Origin: Porticoccaceae bacterium UBA1117 | Lineage (GTDB): Bacteria > Pseudomonadota > Gammaproteobacteria > Pseudomonadales > Porticoccaceae | Assembly (NCBI GenBank): GCA_002313335.1 | Contig: DCBC01000153.1 | Location: 1,778 to 12,851 of the forward strand | Reading direction: 5' to 3' | Length of the DNA stretch: 11,074 nt | Shown here: in pieces, positions 3,714 to 11,074 of the stretch | Layout: each line of letters starts with the position of its first letter | How positions within the stretch are numbered: position 1 is the first letter of the stretch | Translations under genes and position numbers: made by a program | The notes under the pieces: generated by a model | Seen by the model: only the letters and a program-made list of their open reading frames with translations | What the model was told of the DNA's origin: nothing | The model's database searches: none

Positions 3714-3715
3714 GG

Positions 3716-3753
3716 GTGGAGCTTCTGGTTAAGAATTGTAAACTCTATGAACC
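3716..3753 (+). repeat. 38-base downstream repeat, copy B (after the M28 peptidase gene)
   Basis: This is the partner of 1366-1403. It starts two bases after the peptidase stop and has the same length, the same opening GTGGAG, the same core TGGTTAAG, and AAACT and AACC at matching places. Small compensating gaps occur inside. There is no T-tract, so it does not look like an intrinsic terminator. Confidence 0.55.
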
Positions 3754-3886: not shown

Positions 3887-4669
3887 ATGATCGAATCGCT
3901 GTTCTCTATGCAAGATAAAATTTGTGTTGTCACCGGCGGTAGCCGTGGGCTGGGCTCATTCATGGCGCAAGGTTTTCTTGAAGCCGGGGCCAAACGCGTC
4001 TATATCACTGCTCGCAAAGCCGAAGCCTGTCTCAGTGCCGCAAAAGAACTAAGTCAGTACGGTGAATGTATTGCCATTCCGGGCGATATCGCCACCTCTG
4101 ATGGTCTGCACAATCTTGTCACCGAATTAATGTCCAGAGAGCAGCATATTGATGTATTAGTCAATAATGCCGGTGCAGGTTGGGGCGCACCTTTCGGTGA
4201 GTTCCCAGAGAAAGGGTGGGACAAGACCATGAATATCAATGTCAAAAGTCCCTTCTTCCTAATCCAAGCTCTGACCCCATTACTAAAAAAGAACGCCACT
4301 GCAGACAACACCGCCAGTATTATCAATATTGGTTCCATTGCCGGAATAGTAGGCAACGCTCTGGATAACTTTAGTTATGCAGTATCCAAAACGGCTATCC
4401 ACCAGGTCACCCGTATACTCTCAACTGAATTGGCCAAAGATAATATTCGTGTCAATGCCATTGCCCCTGGACGTTTTTATTCAAAAATGACCGAGTTTTT
4501 GAGTAATGATCAGGAAGCCTTTCAAGAAGAACTAAAAACAATCCCTATGCGCCGCTGGGGAGAAGCGACGGATATTGCTGGCGTTGCTATCATGCTAGCA
4601 TCAAAGGCTGGTGGCTTTATGACAGGCCAGATTATTCCAATCGATGGAGGGACTTCAGTCGTCAATTAA
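3887..4669 (+). CDS. Short-chain dehydrogenase/reductase, RhlG-like
   Basis: This is a 260-residue classical SDR. The cofactor motif TGGSRGLG is at 16-23, with R43 after the second strand (TARK) favouring NADP(H). NNAG is at 93-96, N117 is in NINV, and the catalytic S150, Y164 and K168 are present. The tail IPIDGG is typical of FabG-like SDRs. Several stretches (AEACLSAAKELSQYGECIAI, IAPGRF, IPMRRWG) resemble Pseudomonas RhlG, recalled from memory rather than searched, so a ketoacyl-type reductase is likely; RhlG's own physiological role is debated. It is cytoplasmic, with no signal peptide. The methyltransferase start follows within 18 bases of the stop, so the two are almost certainly one transcript. 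Base use shifts toward higher GC than the M28 gene upstream. Confidence 0.88.
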   Translation: MIESLFSMQDKICVVTGGSRGLGSFMAQGFLEAGAKRVYITARKAEACLSAAKELSQYGECIAIPGDIATSDGLHNLVTELMSREQHIDVLVNNAGAGWGAPFGEFPEKGWDKTMNINVKSPFFLIQALTPLLKKNATADNTASIINIGSIAGIVGNALDNFSYAVSKTAIHQVTRILSTELAKDNIRVNAIAPGRFYSKMTEFLSNDQEAFQEELKTIPMRRWGEATDIAGVAIMLASKAGGFMTGQIIPIDGGTSVVN

Positions 4670-4687
4670 ATAGTGATGGGGGTAACT

Positions 4688-5596
4688 ATGAGCAACTCAA
4701 TTTTTACAAAAGACGGTACAGCCCAGGGAGTCGCCAAACAGCGTTTGATAGAAACTCTAGCCAAATCTAGCGCACGTATCATTAACGATCCCTACGCAGA
4801 TAGGTTTGTGACAGGCGCGAGCTTTATCAAACTAATGGGCCATAAGCTGAACGTCTGGTTAACTCAAAAGGTTGCACCTGGTTTTCACGAACATCTCATT
4901 TCGCGCACGCGCTTCATTGATGATCTAATTCAAAAAATGGCTGCCAGTGGGGTAGAGCAATATGTCATTTTGGGCGCAGGATATGACATGCGAGCTCATC
5001 GGCTTAAACTTCCCTCTTCACTTAAAGTTTTTGAAGTGGATCAGCCTGAGGTTCAGATTAGAAAGCGCTCTAAACTGCCTAAAGAATTACCCAATTCAGA
5101 AAATGTTACCTATGTGGCCGTTGATTTTGCTCATCAGTCACTGAGTAAGGAACTTATGGCTTCAGGTTTCGATCAAAACAAACCTACTATTTTTACGCTC
5201 GAGGGTGTCTCACAGTACATCACTAAAGAGGCTGTTAGTTCATCGATCAAAGAAATGGCTATGCTTACTCAAAAAGCGGGTTCAGTTTTTTTTATATCGT
5301 ATGTCAACGAACTTCTCAATGAAAACCCTGAGGTTTGCTTTGGTAAGGGTTATCCGAAAGCTGCAGCACGCGTTAAATTAATAAAAACATTAGCCGCGAA
5401 AGCCGGCGAGCCTTGGATATCGTTTTATCGTAATGATGAAATAGAAACCGTACTTTTGCAAAATGGTTATGCAATAAAGGAAAACCTGACTTTGGAGGAT
5501 CTTAACTCTCAGTACTTTACCCCTGTTGGACGAACCCTTCCTGAAAATTATTTATTTAACCTTGAACATTTTGTGATCGCGAAATCTCTGAGCTAA
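4688..5596 (+). CDS. Class I SAM-dependent methyltransferase (LCM/TIGR00027 family)
   Basis: Counting from ATG 4688, this is a 302-residue protein. The SAM-binding motif I is at about 93-106 (VILGAGYDMRAHRL), with FEVDQP at 115-120 where the ribose-binding acidic residue sits. VAVDF is at 143-147 and TLEGVSQYIT at 170-179. These and the N-terminal SSAR/DPYADRF pattern match the leucine-carboxyl-methyltransferase-like family (PF04072/TIGR00027) common in actinobacteria and some proteobacteria; substrates are mostly unknown. I chose ATG 4688 because GGGGG (4678-4682) precedes it. GTG 4673 and ATG 4676 are in-frame alternatives that start 3-6 bases after the SDR stop. Close spacing suggests translational coupling and a shared pathway with the SDR. 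The last 70 codons have a second, decayed copy at 9572-9791. Confidence 0.85.
   Translation: MSNSIFTKDGTAQGVAKQRLIETLAKSSARIINDPYADRFVTGASFIKLMGHKLNVWLTQKVAPGFHEHLISRTRFIDDLIQKMAASGVEQYVILGAGYDMRAHRLKLPSSLKVFEVDQPEVQIRKRSKLPKELPNSENVTYVAVDFAHQSLSKELMASGFDQNKPTIFTLEGVSQYITKEAVSSSIKEMAMLTQKAGSVFFISYVNELLNENPEVCFGKGYPKAAARVKLIKTLAAKAGEPWISFYRNDEIETVLLQNGYAIKENLTLEDLNSQYFTPVGRTLPENYLFNLEHFVIAKSLS
5377..5587 (+). repeat. 211-base direct repeat, left copy (inside the intact methyltransferase gene)
   Basis: This segment aligns without gaps to 9572-9782 with 10 mismatches counted by hand (about 95% identity). It covers codons from the ATTAATAAA stretch to four codons from the gene end. The spacing is 4195 bases, and both copies are on the same strand. 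Confidence 0.95.
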
Positions 5597-5630
5597 TTTT
5601 ACTCGTGTTCAATAGTTGCACGATTTGAAA

Positions 5631-5647
5631 CCCCTTAAAATAAGGGG
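5631..5647. repeat. GC-rich-armed hairpin between the methyltransferase and LysR genes
   Basis: CCCCTTA (5631-5637) and TAAGGGG (5641-5647) are perfect 7-base arms around AAA. No T-run follows on the plus strand, so it is at best a weak terminator for the methyltransferase transcript; it could also be a protein site. Confidence 0.5.
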
Positions 5648-5676
5648 ATACAGCGGTGCAAATGGAAAAATATTTT

Positions 5677-5717
5677 CTCAATATGTCGGTGGCGCCATTT
5701 GACCCTCCAATATTGAG
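5677..5717. promoter_or_regulatory. Inverted repeat CTCAATAT...ATATTGAG upstream of the LysR gene, candidate autoregulatory site
   Basis: The perfect 8-base arms lie at 5677-5684 and 5710-5717, and an 8-base palindrome TGGCGCCA (5690-5697) lies between them. The right arm is part of the 13-mer shared with the transporter promoter and overlaps the predicted -35 box. LysR-type regulators commonly bind dyads next to their own promoter. Confidence 0.45.
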
Positions 5718-5741
5718 CGGATATCAGAGGTAAATTAGACT
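5713..5741 (+). promoter_or_regulatory. Candidate promoter of the LysR gene
   Basis: TTGAGC (5713-5718) and TAGACT (5736-5741) are 17 bases apart, about 53 bases before the start codon. Each box matches consensus at four of six positions. The -35 lies within the CCAATATTGAGCG motif (5707-5719). Confidence 0.4.
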
Positions 5742-5794
5742 ATTCTGATGTCGCTTTAATAACAATCGACTAAGTACAAAAGGAATACCTCATC

Positions 5795-6703
5795 ATGGAT
5801 CAGCTAAAAGCACTTAGATATTTCAGTAAAGTGGTCGAAACTGGAAGTTTCACTCGAGCAGCTGAAGCGTTTTCTGTGCCACCCTCCTCCCTATCTAGGC
5901 GCATCGCGGATCTAGAAAAAAACTTAGGGGCAACCCTATTAAAGCGTAGCACCCGAGTGGTTAAGGTAACCGAAATTGGGCAGGTGTACTTCAAGCAGAT
6001 CCAAGATATTTTGACTCAGCTCGAGCTCAGTGACGAAACGGTACGTAGCCATCAGGCTACTCCCACAGGCTTTCTGCGCATTAGCAGTATGGTCAGTTTT
6101 GGCGAGCGACTGTTACTACCTCTGCTAACTGAGTTTAAAGCGCTGTATCCAGCAATTATTTTGGACATAAGCCTCAGTGATGAGTTATCGACGCTGTCCC
6201 GTGACGAAGTGGATATTGCTATACGCGGCGGCTATGCCCCCAATGAGCGGGTGCAGGCCGTGCGCCTAATGAACAATGAGTTTATTCCGGTAGCGGCATC
6301 AAGTTATTTGGCGGCAGCGGGGACACCTAAATACGCCACAGACCTTAAACAACATCAAGGCCTTTTTTTTCGCACACCAACGGGCCCACACACCTGGTTA
6401 TGTCAGTCAAACGGACAATGGTTAGATGTATCCGCACTACCCCTAGCTATCTCTAACAATGGTAAATGGTTAGGCGAGCAGGCAATTGCAGGACAGGGAA
6501 TTATGATGGCACCAAGATGGTTGGTGCAAGAGTATATCGATAGCAACGAATTACAGGAATTGCATATTGAGCCAACACTGCACATTAGCCAAAATCCGGG
6601 ACTGGCTATTTATCTTCTCTATCAAAAGCAGCAGTATCTGGTACCGAAAGTTAAGGTCGCGGTGGATTTTCTGATGGCACGGTTTTCTGCGGACTCAATC
6701 TGA
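5795..6703 (+). CDS. LysR-type transcriptional regulator
   Basis: This is a 302-residue protein of normal family length. Residues 1-60 form the winged helix-turn-helix (LRYFSKVVETGSFTRAAEAF, then SSLSRRIADLEKNLG), with RSTR.V..TE.G after it as usual. Residues about 90-297 form the periplasmic-binding-like effector domain, starting at GFLRIS and including DVDIAIR-type text (EVDIAIRGG). The effector is not predictable. It most resembles the CrgA/AaeR-like group common beside oxidoreductase genes, a family impression only. AGGA (5781-5784) lies 10 bases before the ATG. The gene converges with the minus-strand reductase, ending 75 bases from it. It shares a 13-base promoter motif with the transporter-reductase operon, which suggests that it controls both itself and that operon. 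Confidence 0.92.
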   Translation: MDQLKALRYFSKVVETGSFTRAAEAFSVPPSSLSRRIADLEKNLGATLLKRSTRVVKVTEIGQVYFKQIQDILTQLELSDETVRSHQATPTGFLRISSMVSFGERLLLPLLTEFKALYPAIILDISLSDELSTLSRDEVDIAIRGGYAPNERVQAVRLMNNEFIPVAASSYLAAAGTPKYATDLKQHQGLFFRTPTGPHTWLCQSNGQWLDVSALPLAISNNGKWLGEQAIAGQGIMMAPRWLVQEYIDSNELQELHIEPTLHISQNPGLAIYLLYQKQQYLVPKVKVAVDFLMARFSADSI

Positions 6704-6740
6704 ACGAGGGGGATACCCAGCCAGATTGCTGAATATCTCC

Positions 6741-6781
6741 GATGAAGCTCTTAGTCTTAATATTCTTGATGAAAGCTCTTA
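6741..6781. repeat. Short direct repeat between the convergent LysR and reductase genes
   Basis: GATGAAGCTCTTA (6741-6753) recurs as GATGAAAGCTCTTA (6768-6781) with one inserted A. The second copy overlaps the reductase stop codon. I see no convincing terminator hairpin in the 75-base gap between the two converging genes. Confidence 0.5.
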
Positions 6782-7888
6782 CTTGCCCGCACTTGGCACA
6801 ATAAGTACTTTGCCATTTCTACCACGTTCCGCAGCACGAGTAACAGCTTGCTTGATTTCGTCAACCGAGTAGCGAGAGTCAACATTGGCTTTTAGAGTGC
6901 CATTTACAATCAACGGAATAACCTGCCCAAAAGTAGCCTGCTTTGTTGCCATGTCAGCTGATTGGTACCACTTATAAAGCCAAAAACCACGCAGACGAGT
7001 GTCGTTAACAATAATATTACCAGTGTTCAAGATTGCGGGCTGGCCCGACAGTACACCATAAGTAACCAGAGTGCCGCTATAGCCAAGACTATCAGCCAAT
7101 CGAGAATAAGTTTCACCACCAACAGGATCAAGAGCAAGTACAACCGGTGCATTGCCCGTTGCTTTGGCGATTTGAGCAGCAAGATCTGGTCCGTCGATCA
7201 AAACTACATCCGCACCCTTTGACTTCAATTCTTCTGCAAGACCTTCACGACGAACAATATTGACAGTCTTGATGCCACGCTGCTTTGCCAGCTGGATAAC
7301 ATAGCCGCCCACCGCCGAATTCGCAGCGCTTTGTGCAATCCACTGGCCTTTTTTAACATCCACAAAAGAGGTCAGCATAAGTAACGCCGTTAAAGGGTTA
7401 ACCGCGGACATAGCAAGCTGTTCAATCACCTCATCACTAAGAGGGCCCATGTTAGGTAAGGGAAGAAACCCAGCTGCCGGAGCCACTATTTCGTCCCTCC
7501 AGGTTCCTCCGCTGGCAAGCAATACCAGCTGGCCAACCGTTAAATTTTTTACGTCTGCCGATGTTTCCACCACTCGGCCAACGCCTTCGCTACCCGGGTT
7601 AGACGGCAATACTGGATCCACACCGTAGTTACCCGAAATCTGTAATAAGTCTGATGGGTTGATGGGTGCTGCCAAAACTTTCACTCTGACTTGGCCACTC
7701 TTTAAAGGTCGAGGGCTGTATTCTTTAATCTTGATTACATCTGCCGGGTTGCCCATCTCACTAAACTCAAGATATTTTAGCTTTGCTTCCGTTTCTTGAT
7801 GCTCACCTCCAGAATGATGATCTGCGATAGCAAAAGATGGAGAGCCTAAAAAAAGCGCTAAAATGGTAATGATAGAAATATTTTTCAT
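6779..7888 (-). CDS. MECR/Etr1-like enoyl-thioester reductase (MDR family) with an N-terminal signal peptide
   Basis: This is a 369-residue protein. From about residue 36 it is a zinc-independent medium-chain dehydrogenase/reductase. INPSD (76-80) and NYG with Y88 match the catalytic region of human MECR and yeast Etr1. GTW with W130, NPLTA (164-168), the Rossmann turn AANSAVGGYVIQLA (188-201) and the NADP-binding VRR (212-214) follow. Such enzymes use NADPH to reduce 2-enoyl-ACP or enoyl-CoA, or act as quinone reductases. Oddly, residues 1-22 form a clear Sec signal (MKN, hydrophobic core, AIA-D) followed by a His-rich linker (DHHSGGEH). GGGAG lies 7 bases before this ATG, so the signal-bearing start looks real. 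NADPH is not expected in the periplasm. The gene is the second in an operon, 40 bases after the transporter. Confidence 0.87.
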   Translation of the reverse strand: MKNISIITILALFLGSPSFAIADHHSGGEHQETEAKLKYLEFSEMGNPADVIKIKEYSPRPLKSGQVRVKVLAAPINPSDLLQISGNYGVDPVLPSNPGSEGVGRVVETSADVKNLTVGQLVLLASGGTWRDEIVAPAAGFLPLPNMGPLSDEVIEQLAMSAVNPLTALLMLTSFVDVKKGQWIAQSAANSAVGGYVIQLAKQRGIKTVNIVRREGLAEELKSKGADVVLIDGPDLAAQIAKATGNAPVVLALDPVGGETYSRLADSLGYSGTLVTYGVLSGQPAILNTGNIIVNDTRLRGFWLYKWYQSADMATKQATFGQVIPLIVNGTLKANVDSRYSVDEIKQAVTRAAERGRNGKVLIVPSAGK

Positions 7889-7895
7889 GGTGTTG

Positions 7896-7900
7896 CTCCC
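7896..7900 (-). promoter_or_regulatory. Ribosome binding site that fixes the reductase start
   Basis: On the minus strand GGGAG precedes the ATG at 7888 by 7 bases. The position supports translation from the start that includes the signal peptide rather than from the internal Met45. Confidence 0.65.
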
Positions 7901-7928
7901 TTACTTATTTTGTTGTTGTTTGTGATTG

Positions 7929-9275
7929 TTATACGGTACTGCTGTTCTCCGCAATATTGACTATAGCTTTTGGTGTTGCCTCGCCCGATGGCTCAGTGTC
8001 ATCTTGCTCAAACCAGCGTCCGAGATAGATACCCACTATTGACCAAAGTGCTGCTATACCAGCCCCAACCATAGCAACAGCAGCCAAACCTAGGCCCAAG
8101 CCCTGTGTTAATCCAGTAAACAACCATGCCATCAGCATGTCTCCGCCACGATAGGCAACAATGTCGATGACCGGCTTTGCTTTAAAGCGCGTTTCCCGGT
8201 CAACCCGAGTGAATAGCATTTCCCGAGCAGGCCTAGTGACGGCGTAGTTGCCAGCCCTACGTATAATCTGCAAGCCAATCACCGCGCCTAAAAAGGGTGA
8301 AATTGCTAGCACCAGCAAACCAACGCAGATCAAAATGGGAACCAGCGCAATAGTCACCGGCATACCAAATTTTCCCACAATACGACTAGTGGCAAATAGT
8401 CCTGTGGCAATAGATAAAGTATTGACGGCCAGATCCATCTGCGCCCAAATCGCTGTGCGCTCTGCTCTGCTTAATTCGCTGAGTAGATTCTTTAGCTCGA
8501 AGTAAACAAACGAGCTAATGCCTGTATACAAGAATATAAATAGGCCTATGGCCAGTAAATAGGGATTGGAGAAAAACATTTTAAAACCCGCAAAGGGGTT
8601 GCCGCCAATTGGCTCGCTGGGAGGAGTCAACTCCAAATCTTCATTGTGTAGCTCTGTGGATTTTAGTGACTGCAAATAGAAGATGATTGGTATTGGAATC
8701 AGTAGCATCACACTGGCCAATAACATTAAATTATCTGTGCCCATGGACGCCGAGAAAAACGAGGGTATAGAAGGGCCAATCAGACCGCCGACACTTGCAC
8801 CGGCCGCAATAATACTAAATAGCCTACCCGCCTGTTCTTTATTGAACAGGTCAGACATGAAACTCCAAAAGACTGAAATATGGAACAAGCTAAATACACT
8901 CACCCAGACGTAAAACGACTTATCAATGATTGTTCGATCAGCAGAGGTGTATGCCAGCACGTAAAAAATAACAAAGGTTAGGGCAAAGATACCATACATA
9001 GCCGGAACCAAATAACGAAAGCGGAACCTTGAGACTGCCATGCCATAAACCGCCACAACGGCAGTACTGATAAAAAAGTTGAGAGTCCATAACCAGCTGA
9101 CTTCGGCATCTGTCCAGTCACTGGCCATGGCGTCACGTACCGGTCGAAGTATGTAGTAGGCAGACATCAATACAACCACCAACAGAAATGAGCTTGCGAC
9201 AGCTTTCACTTCCTGGGCCTCTATCTTAGCGACCAACTTTAAAAATCTAGCCATCGGATTGTTGCCTGTAAGCAT
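7929..9275 (-). CDS. MFS / NTP-NDP-exchange-transporter-like membrane protein
   Basis: This is a 448-residue integral membrane protein with about eleven or twelve hydrophobic segments, a charged central loop (about 205-228) splitting two halves, and a short acidic cytoplasmic tail. YYILRPVRDAM (40-50) and the conserved stretch around 348-379 (RPAREMLFTRV, then KAKPVIDIVAYRGGD) are the signature of bacterial proteins annotated as MFS transporters or as relatives of the TlcC/Npt nucleotide carriers. Members in free-living bacteria have no agreed substrate, so ATP/ADP exchange should not be assumed. AGGAG ends 5 bases before the ATG. It is the first gene of a minus-strand operon with the reductase 40 bases downstream. 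A perfect palindrome overlaps its ribosome site, and the promoter region shares a 13-mer with the LysR promoter. Confidence 0.85.
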   Translation of the reverse strand: MLTGNNPMARFLKLVAKIEAQEVKAVASSFLLVVVLMSAYYILRPVRDAMASDWTDAEVSWLWTLNFFISTAVVAVYGMAVSRFRFRYLVPAMYGIFALTFVIFYVLAYTSADRTIIDKSFYVWVSVFSLFHISVFWSFMSDLFNKEQAGRLFSIIAAGASVGGLIGPSIPSFFSASMGTDNLMLLASVMLLIPIPIIFYLQSLKSTELHNEDLELTPPSEPIGGNPFAGFKMFFSNPYLLAIGLFIFLYTGISSFVYFELKNLLSELSRAERTAIWAQMDLAVNTLSIATGLFATSRIVGKFGMPVTIALVPILICVGLLVLAISPFLGAVIGLQIIRRAGNYAVTRPAREMLFTRVDRETRFKAKPVIDIVAYRGGDMLMAWLFTGLTQGLGLGLAAVAMVGAGIAALWSIVGIYLGRWFEQDDTEPSGEATPKAIVNIAENSSTV

Positions 9276-9280
9276 ACTTT

Positions 9281-9298
9281 CTCCTAGGCTAAGCCTAG
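9281..9298 (-). promoter_or_regulatory. Perfect palindrome overlapping the transporter ribosome binding site
   Basis: CTAGGCT-A-AGCCTAG spans 9284-9298, with perfect 7-base arms and a 1-base centre. The Shine-Dalgarno AGGAG (complement of CTCCT, 9281-9285) overlaps its gene-proximal edge. It could be an operator; as RNA the 1-base loop makes a full hairpin unlikely without opening the inner pairs. Confidence 0.5.
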
Positions 9299-9326
9299 CT
9301 AATTATCTTGATTAATCTAAATTTGG

Positions 9327-9356
9327 ATACTACTTTTGAGCGCTAATGTCGCTCAA
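9327..9356 (-). promoter_or_regulatory. Candidate promoter of the transporter-reductase operon with overlapping dyad
   Basis: Read on the minus strand, TTGAGC (9356-9351) and TAGTAT (9332-9327) are 18 bases apart, 51 bases before the start codon. A perfect inverted repeat, TTGAGCG (9336-9342) and CGCTCAA (9350-9356) with a 7-base spacer, covers the -35 box and most of the spacer, a typical place for a regulator site. Confidence 0.5.
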
Positions 9357-9362
9357 TATTGG
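9350..9362 (-). promoter_or_regulatory. 13-base motif CCAATATTGAGCG shared with the LysR promoter
   Basis: The complement of 9350-9362 is identical to 5707-5719. On its own strand it lies 74 bases before the transporter start codon; the LysR copy lies 75 bases before the LysR start. It includes the predicted -35 box at both places. Confidence 0.6.
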
Positions 9363-9402
9363 CCATGGCTAGCCTACGCATAGATCTGCTCTAAAGGAGG
9401 AT

Positions 9403-9419
9403 TATATTAGCCTAATATA
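9403..9419. repeat. Perfect AT-rich palindrome TATATTAG-C-CTAATATA
   Basis: The 8-base arms are perfect around a single C, about 130 bases upstream of the transporter start. The core TTAGCCTAA shares the word AGCCTA with 9292-9297 (in the palindrome at the ribosome site) and with 9371-9376. Confidence 0.5.
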
Positions 9420-9420
9420 G

Positions 9421-9571
9421 GCAAGGATAAATAGGATAATGTGGGTATGTTTATTGTCATAAAGGCAATAATATTGGCTAAATGTCTAATGCCAGTTTAA
9501 TACCCCTCATCATCCACTGTACCAAAGGCTTTGACAAAACATGACAAGCCAAGGTGAGTTGCGCTTGCTGC
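9421..9571. other. Non-coding spacer between the operon control region and the methyltransferase remnant
   Basis: I see no gene here. A minus-strand frame running 9669-9478 overlaps the remnant antisense and has no recognisable family or ribosome site. AATATTGGC (9470-9478) repeats nine bases of the motif region at 9355-9363. Confidence 0.4.
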
Positions 9572-9791
9572 ATTAATAAAGCCATTAGCCGCGAAAGCCG
9601 GCGAGCCTTGAATATCGTTTTATCGTAATGATGAAATAGAAACTGTACTTTCGCAAAATGGTTGTGCAATGAAGGAAAACCTGACTTTGGAGGAACTTAA
9701 CTGTCAGTACTTTACCCCTGTTGGACGAACCCTTCCTGAAAATTATTTATTTAACCTTGAACATTTTGTGATCGCCAAATCTCATTATTGA
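9572..9791 (+). pseudogene. 5'-truncated, decayed copy of the methyltransferase gene 3' end
   Basis: Positions 9572-9782 match 5377-5587 with 10 mismatches and no gaps, and homology starts abruptly at 9572. In the parental frame the Trp codon TGG (5414-5416) has become TGA (9609-9611), so the frame is broken. Downstream the frame still reads ISFYRNDEIETVL and on to a shifted end KSHY followed by TGA at 9789-9791. Six of the ten changes are at third positions, three at second and one at first; eight change the encoded residue, are nonsense, or fall next to such a change. No start codon, ribosome site or SAM-binding domain is present, so it cannot be a working enzyme. It is a useful marker of a past rearrangement. 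Confidence 0.92.
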
Positions 9792-9855
9792 TTTTATTCC
9801 CAATCAAGAGTCACATCTGAAATCCTGTTAATATCAGCATATTATAATTTCTTCA

Positions 9856-9872
9856 GTTGTATAGATTACAAC
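9856..9872. repeat. Small hairpin over the dipeptidase stop codon
   Basis: GTTGTA (9856-9861) and TACAAC (9867-9872) are perfect 6-base arms with a 5-base loop, overlapping the TAA of the minus-strand dipeptidase. No U-tract follows on the minus strand, so terminator activity is doubtful. Confidence 0.35.
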
Positions 9873-11074
9873 TCTAATACCCTGCTGTAGCTGCGTGTTT
9901 CCATACTTTTTATGGCGTTAGCATTCTTTTTATAATTTAGGGCATTAGGAAGATTCTGTTGTAAGAAAGCGAGCATATTCCCACCCATCACCTTTCTAAT
10001 CTGCATGTCACTTAAGCCTAACTCAAGTAATTCATGAGTTATAGCTACAAGCTCTGAGCTATCAAAACCTGCGGTAATAGCTCCATCAAAATCTGACCCT
10101 AGAGCTACATGATCAACGCCAATAAGCTCAACCCCATACGCGATAGCCTCAGCAACCGACTTGGGAGTATTGTCACAGACTGCTCCGTCCCAAAAACCAA
10201 CGCCAATTAATCCACCCTTTTCAGCAATTAATTGCATTAAACCATCACTAATATTCCGAGGAGATTCGCAATATCCGTTAAACCCTGTATGGCTAACAAC
10301 AATCGGTTTGTTGGTTATATCCAGAACATCTTTGACAACATTTTCAGAAGAATGAGAAACATCAATAATGATATTTAAGCGGAGCATTTCAAGTAGGGAT
10401 TCCTTTCCAAATTTGGTTAGACCTTGTCCGGTTATGCCATGCAATGATCCCCCAAGTTTGTTATCAAAGAAATGATGCAGACTCATCATCCGAAAGCCTT
10501 TATTATAGAGCCGTTCTATATTTTTTAAGTCCCCATCTAAAGCGTGAGATCCTTCAGTACCAATAAGTCCACCGATGAGTGTTGGATTTAATTCTCTTTT
10601 GATCATAAATTGCTTCAGATCAGATTGAGACTCTATCAACATGAAATTTTTAGAATCGCGAAGTGATAAATCACGAATTTTTTCAGCCTGAAAAATTGCT
10701 CTTTCTGTAAGACTTGACCACGTTTTAATTGGCCAACCTTGGGCGATAGCTAAAGTGGTAATATTATCTCTAGCGGTCGTCTCATTGCTGTTATAGTTTT
10801 GACCAGCAGGTGATTTAGTGACCGTTGTAAACATCTGCAACGCTATATTTCCTGTTTGCATCCTTGGTATATCCTCATGACCATAATCATAAGTCTTACT
10901 TAAATCTCGGTTCCATAAAGTGCTGTCTGAGTGCCAATCGCCTACTATTAACGTTTTGTGCAACTCTCTAGCTTTATCTGAGACTATAAAAGGTAAGTGA
11001 TCTAAGACTGGGTTACTTTCTTTATCAAGCATAGCTGGAAGAAAAATTCGTCCAGCTAAAGCTATAACAAAAAA
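9866..11074 (-). CDS. M19 family (renal-dipeptidase-like) metallopeptidase, 5' end outside window
   Basis: Counting from an internal ATG at 11032, 388 residues show the M19 TIM-barrel metal site: H34 and D36 (DWHSD), bridging E160 (GTEGSH), H227 (SHSS), H248 (SHTG), R259 (SPRN) and D314 (GSDFDG). Members cleave dipeptides, often with a D-residue at the C-terminal position, and some act on other amide substrates. The frame stays open from 11032 to the window edge and reads FFVIALAGRIFLPA, a hydrophobic stretch. The true start is therefore probably outside, and the protein likely carries an N-terminal membrane anchor or signal, placing it in the periplasm or on the membrane. Codon and base use are AT-rich like the M28 and EEP genes. 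It ends 75 bases from the methyltransferase remnant. Confidence 0.9.
   Translation of the reverse strand, partial: FFVIALAGRIFLPAMLDKESNPVLDHLPFIVSDKARELHKTLIVGDWHSDSTLWNRDLSKTYDYGHEDIPRMQTGNIALQMFTTVTKSPAGQNYNSNETTARDNITTLAIAQGWPIKTWSSLTERAIFQAEKIRDLSLRDSKNFMLIESQSDLKQFMIKRELNPTLIGGLIGTEGSHALDGDLKNIERLYNKGFRMMSLHHFFDNKLGGSLHGITGQGLTKFGKESLLEMLRLNIIIDVSHSSENVVKDVLDITNKPIVVSHTGFNGYCESPRNISDGLMQLIAEKGGLIGVGFWDGAVCDNTPKSVAEAIAYGVELIGVDHVALGSDFDGAITAGFDSSELVAITHELLELGLSDMQIRKVMGGNMLAFLQQNLPNALNYKKNANAIKSMETRSYSRVLEL

Follow-up and report, generated by a model that had tools for sequence, protein, structure and literature searches.

The recombination sites of integrons are attC/attI. In tandem accretion, successive elements such as the cis-mobilizable elements (CIMEs) accumulate at a single att site, and the older att copies that come to lie between them decay. 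Some integrative and conjugative elements (ICEs) and islands supply a new 3' end to the gene that they target, so that the intact gene lies on one side of them and a fragment of its 3' part on the other. How genes first gain a cassette recombination site is, to our knowledge, an open question for integrons and for similar arrays. Here we describe a block of DNA from Porticoccaceae bacterium UBA1117 that lies between an intact methyltransferase (MT) gene and a truncated second copy of its 3' end, and compare it with the closest described systems. The window, by which we mean the whole stretch of DNA that was analysed, comprises 11,074 nucleotides (assembly GCA_002313335.1, contig DCBC01000153.1, positions 1,778 to 12,851) and is part of a 12.9-kb contig, C53, of a genome of 1.92 Mb that is 74% complete and divided into 173 contigs (G000). 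We read the block, with a probability of about 0.6, as a unit reaching from one attachment site to the next in a tandem cassette array, now decayed, that was based on sites of the guaA type. It would have become a passenger when it was fused to the 3' stub left by a duplicated MT cassette and to the site behind that stub.

GIsul2 and its CR2-sul2 unit (PMC9376610) are the nearest tested precedent for such a passenger unit. GIsul2 is reported to integrate at the 3' end of guaA, with the core GAGTGGGA. Its integrase also mobilises the smaller CR2-sul2 unit, cutting it out and inserting it by exchange between the internal site attLR and attR. Hybrid sites form at each joint. The arrays that we describe here have the same target and the same core. 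As described there, however, GIsul2 is an island of multiple genes that encodes its integrase itself, whereas the units found here are small, mostly of one gene, arranged in tandem and without an intact integrase; they also differ from GIsul2 as there described in having an inverted-repeat arm beside the core.

The intact MT gene lies at 4673-5596 on the forward strand and encodes a protein of 307 amino acids dependent on S-adenosylmethionine, of the LCM family (PF04072, 8.9e-47; TIGR00027, 6.4e-56). Its 3' end, at 5377-5587, is repeated in the same orientation at 9572-9782. The initial annotation had claimed a direct repeat of 211 bases with 10 mismatches, and this is confirmed, with two copies at a spacing of 4195 bp. 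It had also remarked on the abrupt start and in-frame TGA of the right copy; there are indeed no matching MT codons 5' of 9572, and a TGG codon has become TGA at 9609. In the MT frame the 10 mismatches comprise 3 silent, 6 missense and 1 nonsense changes. Judged by eye against the MT genes of relatives, the right copy has changed at about 8 of the 10 positions and one position is ambiguous; the left copy has a single change, to TTG from the TCG or TCA of most relatives. The right copy is a 5'-truncated MT end in decay. It is 95.3% identical to the left copy, compared with 69.7-78.7% to those of the four relatives compared, and G000, which is 74% complete, yielded no third copy of the MT.

Behind each MT end lies a degenerate guaA-type attachment site on the forward strand, site 1 at 5588-5660 and site 2 at 9783-9870. 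The site at the 3' end of guaA consists of the core GAGTGGGA and an inverted repeat. Read in reverse it encodes the end of GuaA, ...ATIEWE followed by the stop, and TTAYTCCCACTCAATAG is the complement of the guaA 3' end with the core GAGTGGGA. In site 1 the core (5602-5615) is eroded and the inverted-repeat arm (5631-5647) is well kept. The core of site 2 (9797-9810) reads GATTGGGA in reverse complement, changed from GAGTGGGA at one of eight positions. Both cores begin 15 positions past the last base of the repeat, in the same orientation and 4195 bp apart, so that one period of 4195 bp leads from one site to the next.

The sites were scored with an attachment-site profile. We gathered 37 distinct sites from the loci examined, requiring no more than two mismatches to the 14-base core and sufficient flank. 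Removal of six guaA gene ends, four weak or duplicate sites and the two from G000 left 25 training sites, none from this genome, although some near-identical pairs (G003/G007) remain among them. The profile was run on the window and 20 contigs of G000, with a control scan of 46 loci. Site 1 is matched over 5609-5649 with 15.4-15.6 bits (E 0.003-0.007), and site 2 over 9793-9839 with 8.7-9.6 bits (E 0.34-0.55). Within the window the two MT tails are the only matches above 9 bits; elsewhere in the genome this level is reached by two intact sites on contig C2, and the next best matches have 6.4-7.7 bits. A score of 9.6 bits was reached at none of the 502,676 control bases.

Pairwise alignment to the 25 sites, expressed as z against shuffles, gave a clear separation from 12 random stretches of the window, for which the best z was 1.4-3.9 and the median -0.4 to 0.3. 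The best and median z were 9.0 and 2.1 for site 1 and 8.8 and 4.8 for site 2. For the MT tail of the relative G025 they were 15.3 and 3.6, and the tail is a site by this test though absent from the profile matches. Site 1 aligned with a site on contig C2 at z 11.5, and site 2 gave individual values of 7.6, 7.1, 6.8 and 6.6, with none of 300 shuffles as good in each case. On both flanks of the block the guaA-type sites are thus present in degenerate form only, with arms that are significant pairwise.

The two MT tails are about 60% identical, compared with 95% in the coding part. They had been thought weakly related, and their alignment beats all of 2000 dinucleotide shuffles (z 5.1). A suspicion that the tails and the coding part have separate histories is also borne out, for the known sites that site 1 resembles are not those that site 2 resembles. 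Site 1 resembles sites of C2, G028 and G007, and part of the left MT tail is found again on C2. Site 2 resembles another site of G028, those of loci L017 and L020, and the G003 site that follows an EEP gene. This is expected if different cassettes met there. Plain homologous recombination would explain the locus by a single crossover between the resident MT and a circle or linear DNA bearing the block and an MT 3' end, with the sites as passive neighbours. It accounts for an intact gene opposite a truncated one, for the high identity of the copies, and for the failure to find block DNA in the closest relatives. One crossover between near-identical MT ends would not, however, generate such divergent tails resembling different sites, unless the alleles had differed and the coding part was then homogenised, and the edges of the block sit just past one site and at the stub. 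We regard this explanation as unlikely.

The relatives were drawn from a sample of 50 genomes of the genus, G000 included, with one genome per species and at most six candidates scored per genome, so that short pieces may escape. By TrpE identity the nearest are G025, G027 and G068 (all 96%; completeness 88, 76 and 90%), and block DNA was found in none of these three. MT DNA occurs in six of the 50 genomes (G000, G025, G032, G020, G013 and, as a fragment, G011), and only in G000 is it joined to the block, with two MT 3' ends around it. The arrangement is not common to relatives, and the stub is closest to its own left copy. In G025, one of the three without detected block DNA, a single MT is followed by EEP, a different module. 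This comparison, proposed in the initial annotation, supports an insertion. The annotation had offered, as origins of the arrangement, a crossover with a circle carrying the 3' part of the MT or a tandem duplication followed by deletion; either may have occurred, and both leave the guaA-type sites out of account.

The passenger block extends from 5667 to 9570, its edges being set by homology to G032 and G066 (86% at the DNA level). In both genomes the homology to the window starts at 5667/5668 and stops at 9570, so that 9570/9572 is the joint of block and MT stub. The block contains a LysR-type regulator on the forward strand (5795-6703; PF03466/PF00126) and, on the reverse strand, a member of the quinone oxidoreductase / zinc-type alcohol dehydrogenase family (6779-7888; PF00107/PF08240; best NCBIfam match TIGR02824, below cut-off) and an MFS-type membrane transporter (7929-9275; PF07690, 1.6e-15). 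The three genes form one conserved stretch in G032 and G066, which have 7.9 kb in common at 93%. The reductase and transporter are kept in other members of the genus, often with the LysR gene (69-81% DNA identity). We considered and rejected an origin of 9523-9571 from the 5' part of the MT, as would be left by an internal deletion of a full second gene, because the block homology to G032 spans this interval to 9570. When 9523-9571 was aligned to the whole MT gene, 290 of 1000 shuffles did as well as the best alignment; for the first 100 nucleotides of the gene the number was 15 of 1000.

The position of the joint bears on whether the structure could be an assembly artefact, a false joining of two strains or loci across the repeated MT end during the short-read assembly of a metagenome-assembled genome. 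An assembly of this fragmentation and completeness invites the question, and misjoins commonly fall in repeats. The joint lies, however, at the edge of the repeat and not within it, and the stub has 10 differences and a tail of its own, with no third MT copy found in the genome. An artefact seems to us highly improbable.

In G032 the block is followed by an EEP gene and not by an MT, and G066 has the same order across a gap between two contigs. This could be taken to favour a tandem duplication of a stretch comprising MT and block, followed by loss of the middle of the second copy, with no role for the sites. There is in addition a short match between the right end of the block and EEP 5' flanks, TTGCGCTTRCTGC, though 4-6% of shuffles equal it and we have not used it. 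The EEP link is weak; duplication should moreover have left the tails as alike as the coding part, and no MT DNA was found at the block loci of 16 genomes examined, G000 excepted. Tandem duplication is in our view very unlikely. At the block loci outside G000 (17 loci in 16 genomes, G032 and G066 among them; 174,842 bases) the best profile score for a site is only 7.3 bits. We read the block as a passenger because its left edge lies just past site 1, its right edge lies at the stub that bears site 2, and no sites are recognised at its other loci.

Comparison of loci from relatives and from SAR86 shows that guaA-type sites punctuate tandem arrays of mostly single-gene modules, and that modules held in common swap neighbours at or near the sites. 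Behind guaA in G028 come sites at about 3939, 5005 and 5807 of locus L161, separated by single genes. Ahead of the guaA end in L029 there are seven sites with one or two genes between them, guaA being fragmented in this record. Two to four sites each are present in L023 (SAR86), L017, L016, G003 and G007. The arrays of G028, G003, L023 and L029 are at guaA. A hydrolase module lies behind guaA in G028 and behind a non-guaA site arm on contig C2 of G000, and the 91% match between them begins 2 bp before the core. This switch at the core is the most direct comparative sign of site-specific exchange. An amine-oxidase module common to the SAR86 locus L022 and to L029 (87%) occupies, but for about 20 bp, the whole of one interval between sites in L029, and a thioesterase module of L017 and L029 (86%) contains a site at one end and ends 36 bp before the next site of L029.

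The MT is itself a recurring cassette module. It adjoins guaA-type sites in L017, L020, L023 and L029, with its 3' end facing the site in L020, L023 and both copies in the window; in L017 the site is at the MT 5' end. Among 23 MT copies and fragments there is a profile match with E <1 within 1.5 kb in 10, and a weaker match in one. The G011 fragment is a lone 121-bp piece of the MT 3' end (L172 1149-1269, on its contig C10; 79%) with no recognisable site adjoining. Around the MTs of G032 (L170 1-3213) and G020 (L171 2638-5850), 3.2 kb are 97.9% identical in DNA, suggesting recent exchange.

The 45 open reading frames (ORFs) of the arrays that were scanned include at least one tyrosine recombinase among the matches listed (one scan giving the best 25 of 58 families). 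It is encoded on contig C2 at 7152-7826 of locus L194, about 0.5 kb from an intact site. Its 224 amino acids match positions 233-446 of a 611-position PHROG integrase profile (2.5e-27) and fall just under the Pfam cut-off, and the protein looks truncated. In L194 (5312-8518) the two intact guaA-type sites, a PF00144 serine-hydrolase module, the recombinase and an ORF of 173 amino acids lie together. No integrase or recombinase was found in a Pfam scan of the nine window proteins, and none inside the 4195-bp unit. The same scan found no transposase, and no inverted-repeat pairs of 20 nucleotides or more were reported in the window. No tRNA genes were found in the four loci scanned. Relatives of the C2 recombinase are remote, with 27.6-30.2% identity in phage (two records) and 24.6-29.7% in plasmids (the best 10 of 12 records), and none was found among viral contigs. 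These contigs had no exact match to one strict site pattern, which degenerate sites would escape. A viral origin was rejected on the basis of the unmatched site pattern and the remoteness of the recombinase relatives.

In form the arrays are closest to integron cassettes, and in site and enzyme they are unlike them. Like chromosomal integrons they have tandem, mostly single-gene modules, recombination sites with inverted repeats, and a pool common to distant bacteria. The site, however, is the 3' end of guaA and not attC/attI. The integron integrase family TIGR02249 had no match in G000 at its 74% completeness and exceeded the cut-off in one of 34 genomes of the genus. We rejected an identity with integrons, given the absence of an integrase match in G000 and the guaA type of the sites found. 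In tandem accretion and CIMEs the usual units are much larger and keep att sites on both flanks, whereas the right flank here is what remains of the gene of another cassette. As in the ICEs that give their target gene a new 3' end, an intact gene and a 3' fragment stand at opposite ends of the locus. Here the MT is not the target, the site lies past it and matches the guaA end, and the unit is without an integrase, and we rejected replacement of this type at the MT. No paper describing tandem cassette arrays at guaA was found in the literature searched, which omits most subscription journals and all preprints.

The order of events may be reconstructed as follows. The array would formerly have held two MT cassettes. 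An illegitimate join to the right end of the LysR-reductase-transporter DNA would have cost the second MT its 5' part, whereby the stub and the second site would have become the tail of the block unit. The stub would afterwards have drifted as a pseudogene. The modules were probably moved by a guaA-directed tyrosine recombinase acting in trans.

A number of observations weigh against this reconstruction and the array on which it is built. The E-value of site 2 is not significant by itself, and its support comes from the pairwise tests, its position and the control scan. The core of site 1, GAACACGA, is changed from GAGTGGGA at four of eight positions. Between the end of the repeat and the core lie 14 bp, of which 6 are not alike in the two copies, and exchange at the core alone does not account for this. 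Pairwise tests recognised no site at the EEP or M28 borders, and at the SDR/MT border the best z was 4.9, against a weak site, with a median of 0.2. Some of the other block loci are cut by contig ends, where sites may have been missed, and the window contig itself stops short of guaA. For 12 of the 23 MT copies and fragments, G025 among them, there was no profile match (E up to 5) within 1.5 kb, and therefore the MT also occurs outside recognisable arrays. No full-length recombinase was found. The source is the sequence of one metagenome-assembled genome, in which a misjoin could have occurred.

Excision of the unit by a recombinase today is unlikely: half of the core positions of site 1 are changed, and a site so eroded would make a poor substrate. 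Homologous recombination between the 211-bp repeats could still delete the block.

Several features of the neighbouring DNA are recorded here. A membrane dipeptidase of family M19 (PF01244) is encoded on the reverse strand at 9866-11032. The gene lacks the stop common to the seven relatives compared, in which the protein ends FLQ..NL..stop, and extends about 25 amino acids further, into the site 2 side (9866-9941). Behind the M28 peptidase gene, for which no clear orthologue was found in the other 49 genomes of the genus, there is a short copy of the EEP 3' tail (1365-1400 and 3714-3741; one of 2000 shuffles as good), about equally close to the EEP tails of G025, G007 and the window. It may be another instance of cargo carried behind the end of a cassette; no attachment site was recognised there and we keep it apart. 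A decayed second EEP copy is present on contig C7 of G000 (1803-2290) in two pieces of 70-75% protein identity, one of them with four stops. The SDR gene (3887-4669) is 88% identical in protein and 80% in DNA to that of G046, from another family of the order, hinting at transfer. At 14-274 there is the C-terminal YadA-like anchor of a surface protein, the frame of which extends upstream on the contig.

The birth of a cassette by fusion would be represented by one clear case, described here, and one faint parallel, the M28 gene with its EEP tail. An operon that has no recognised sites elsewhere in the genus is here placed between two sites with a stub as its tail, and this offers a concrete, testable route of cassette birth. 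More tentatively, and with rather less confidence than in the reading of the block itself, we suggest that marine Gammaproteobacteria (this genus, SAR86 and others) may possess an integron-like cassette system that lands and exchanges at the 3' end of guaA and draws on a pool of mostly one-gene cassettes. The MT stub would then be the scar of a cassette birth, in which a non-mobile operon became fused to the 3' end and site of a duplicated cassette. If this is true, the wider array would add to integrons another kind of cassette system, one carried by abundant and largely uncultured bacteria of the ocean and recognisable by its short core and arm.

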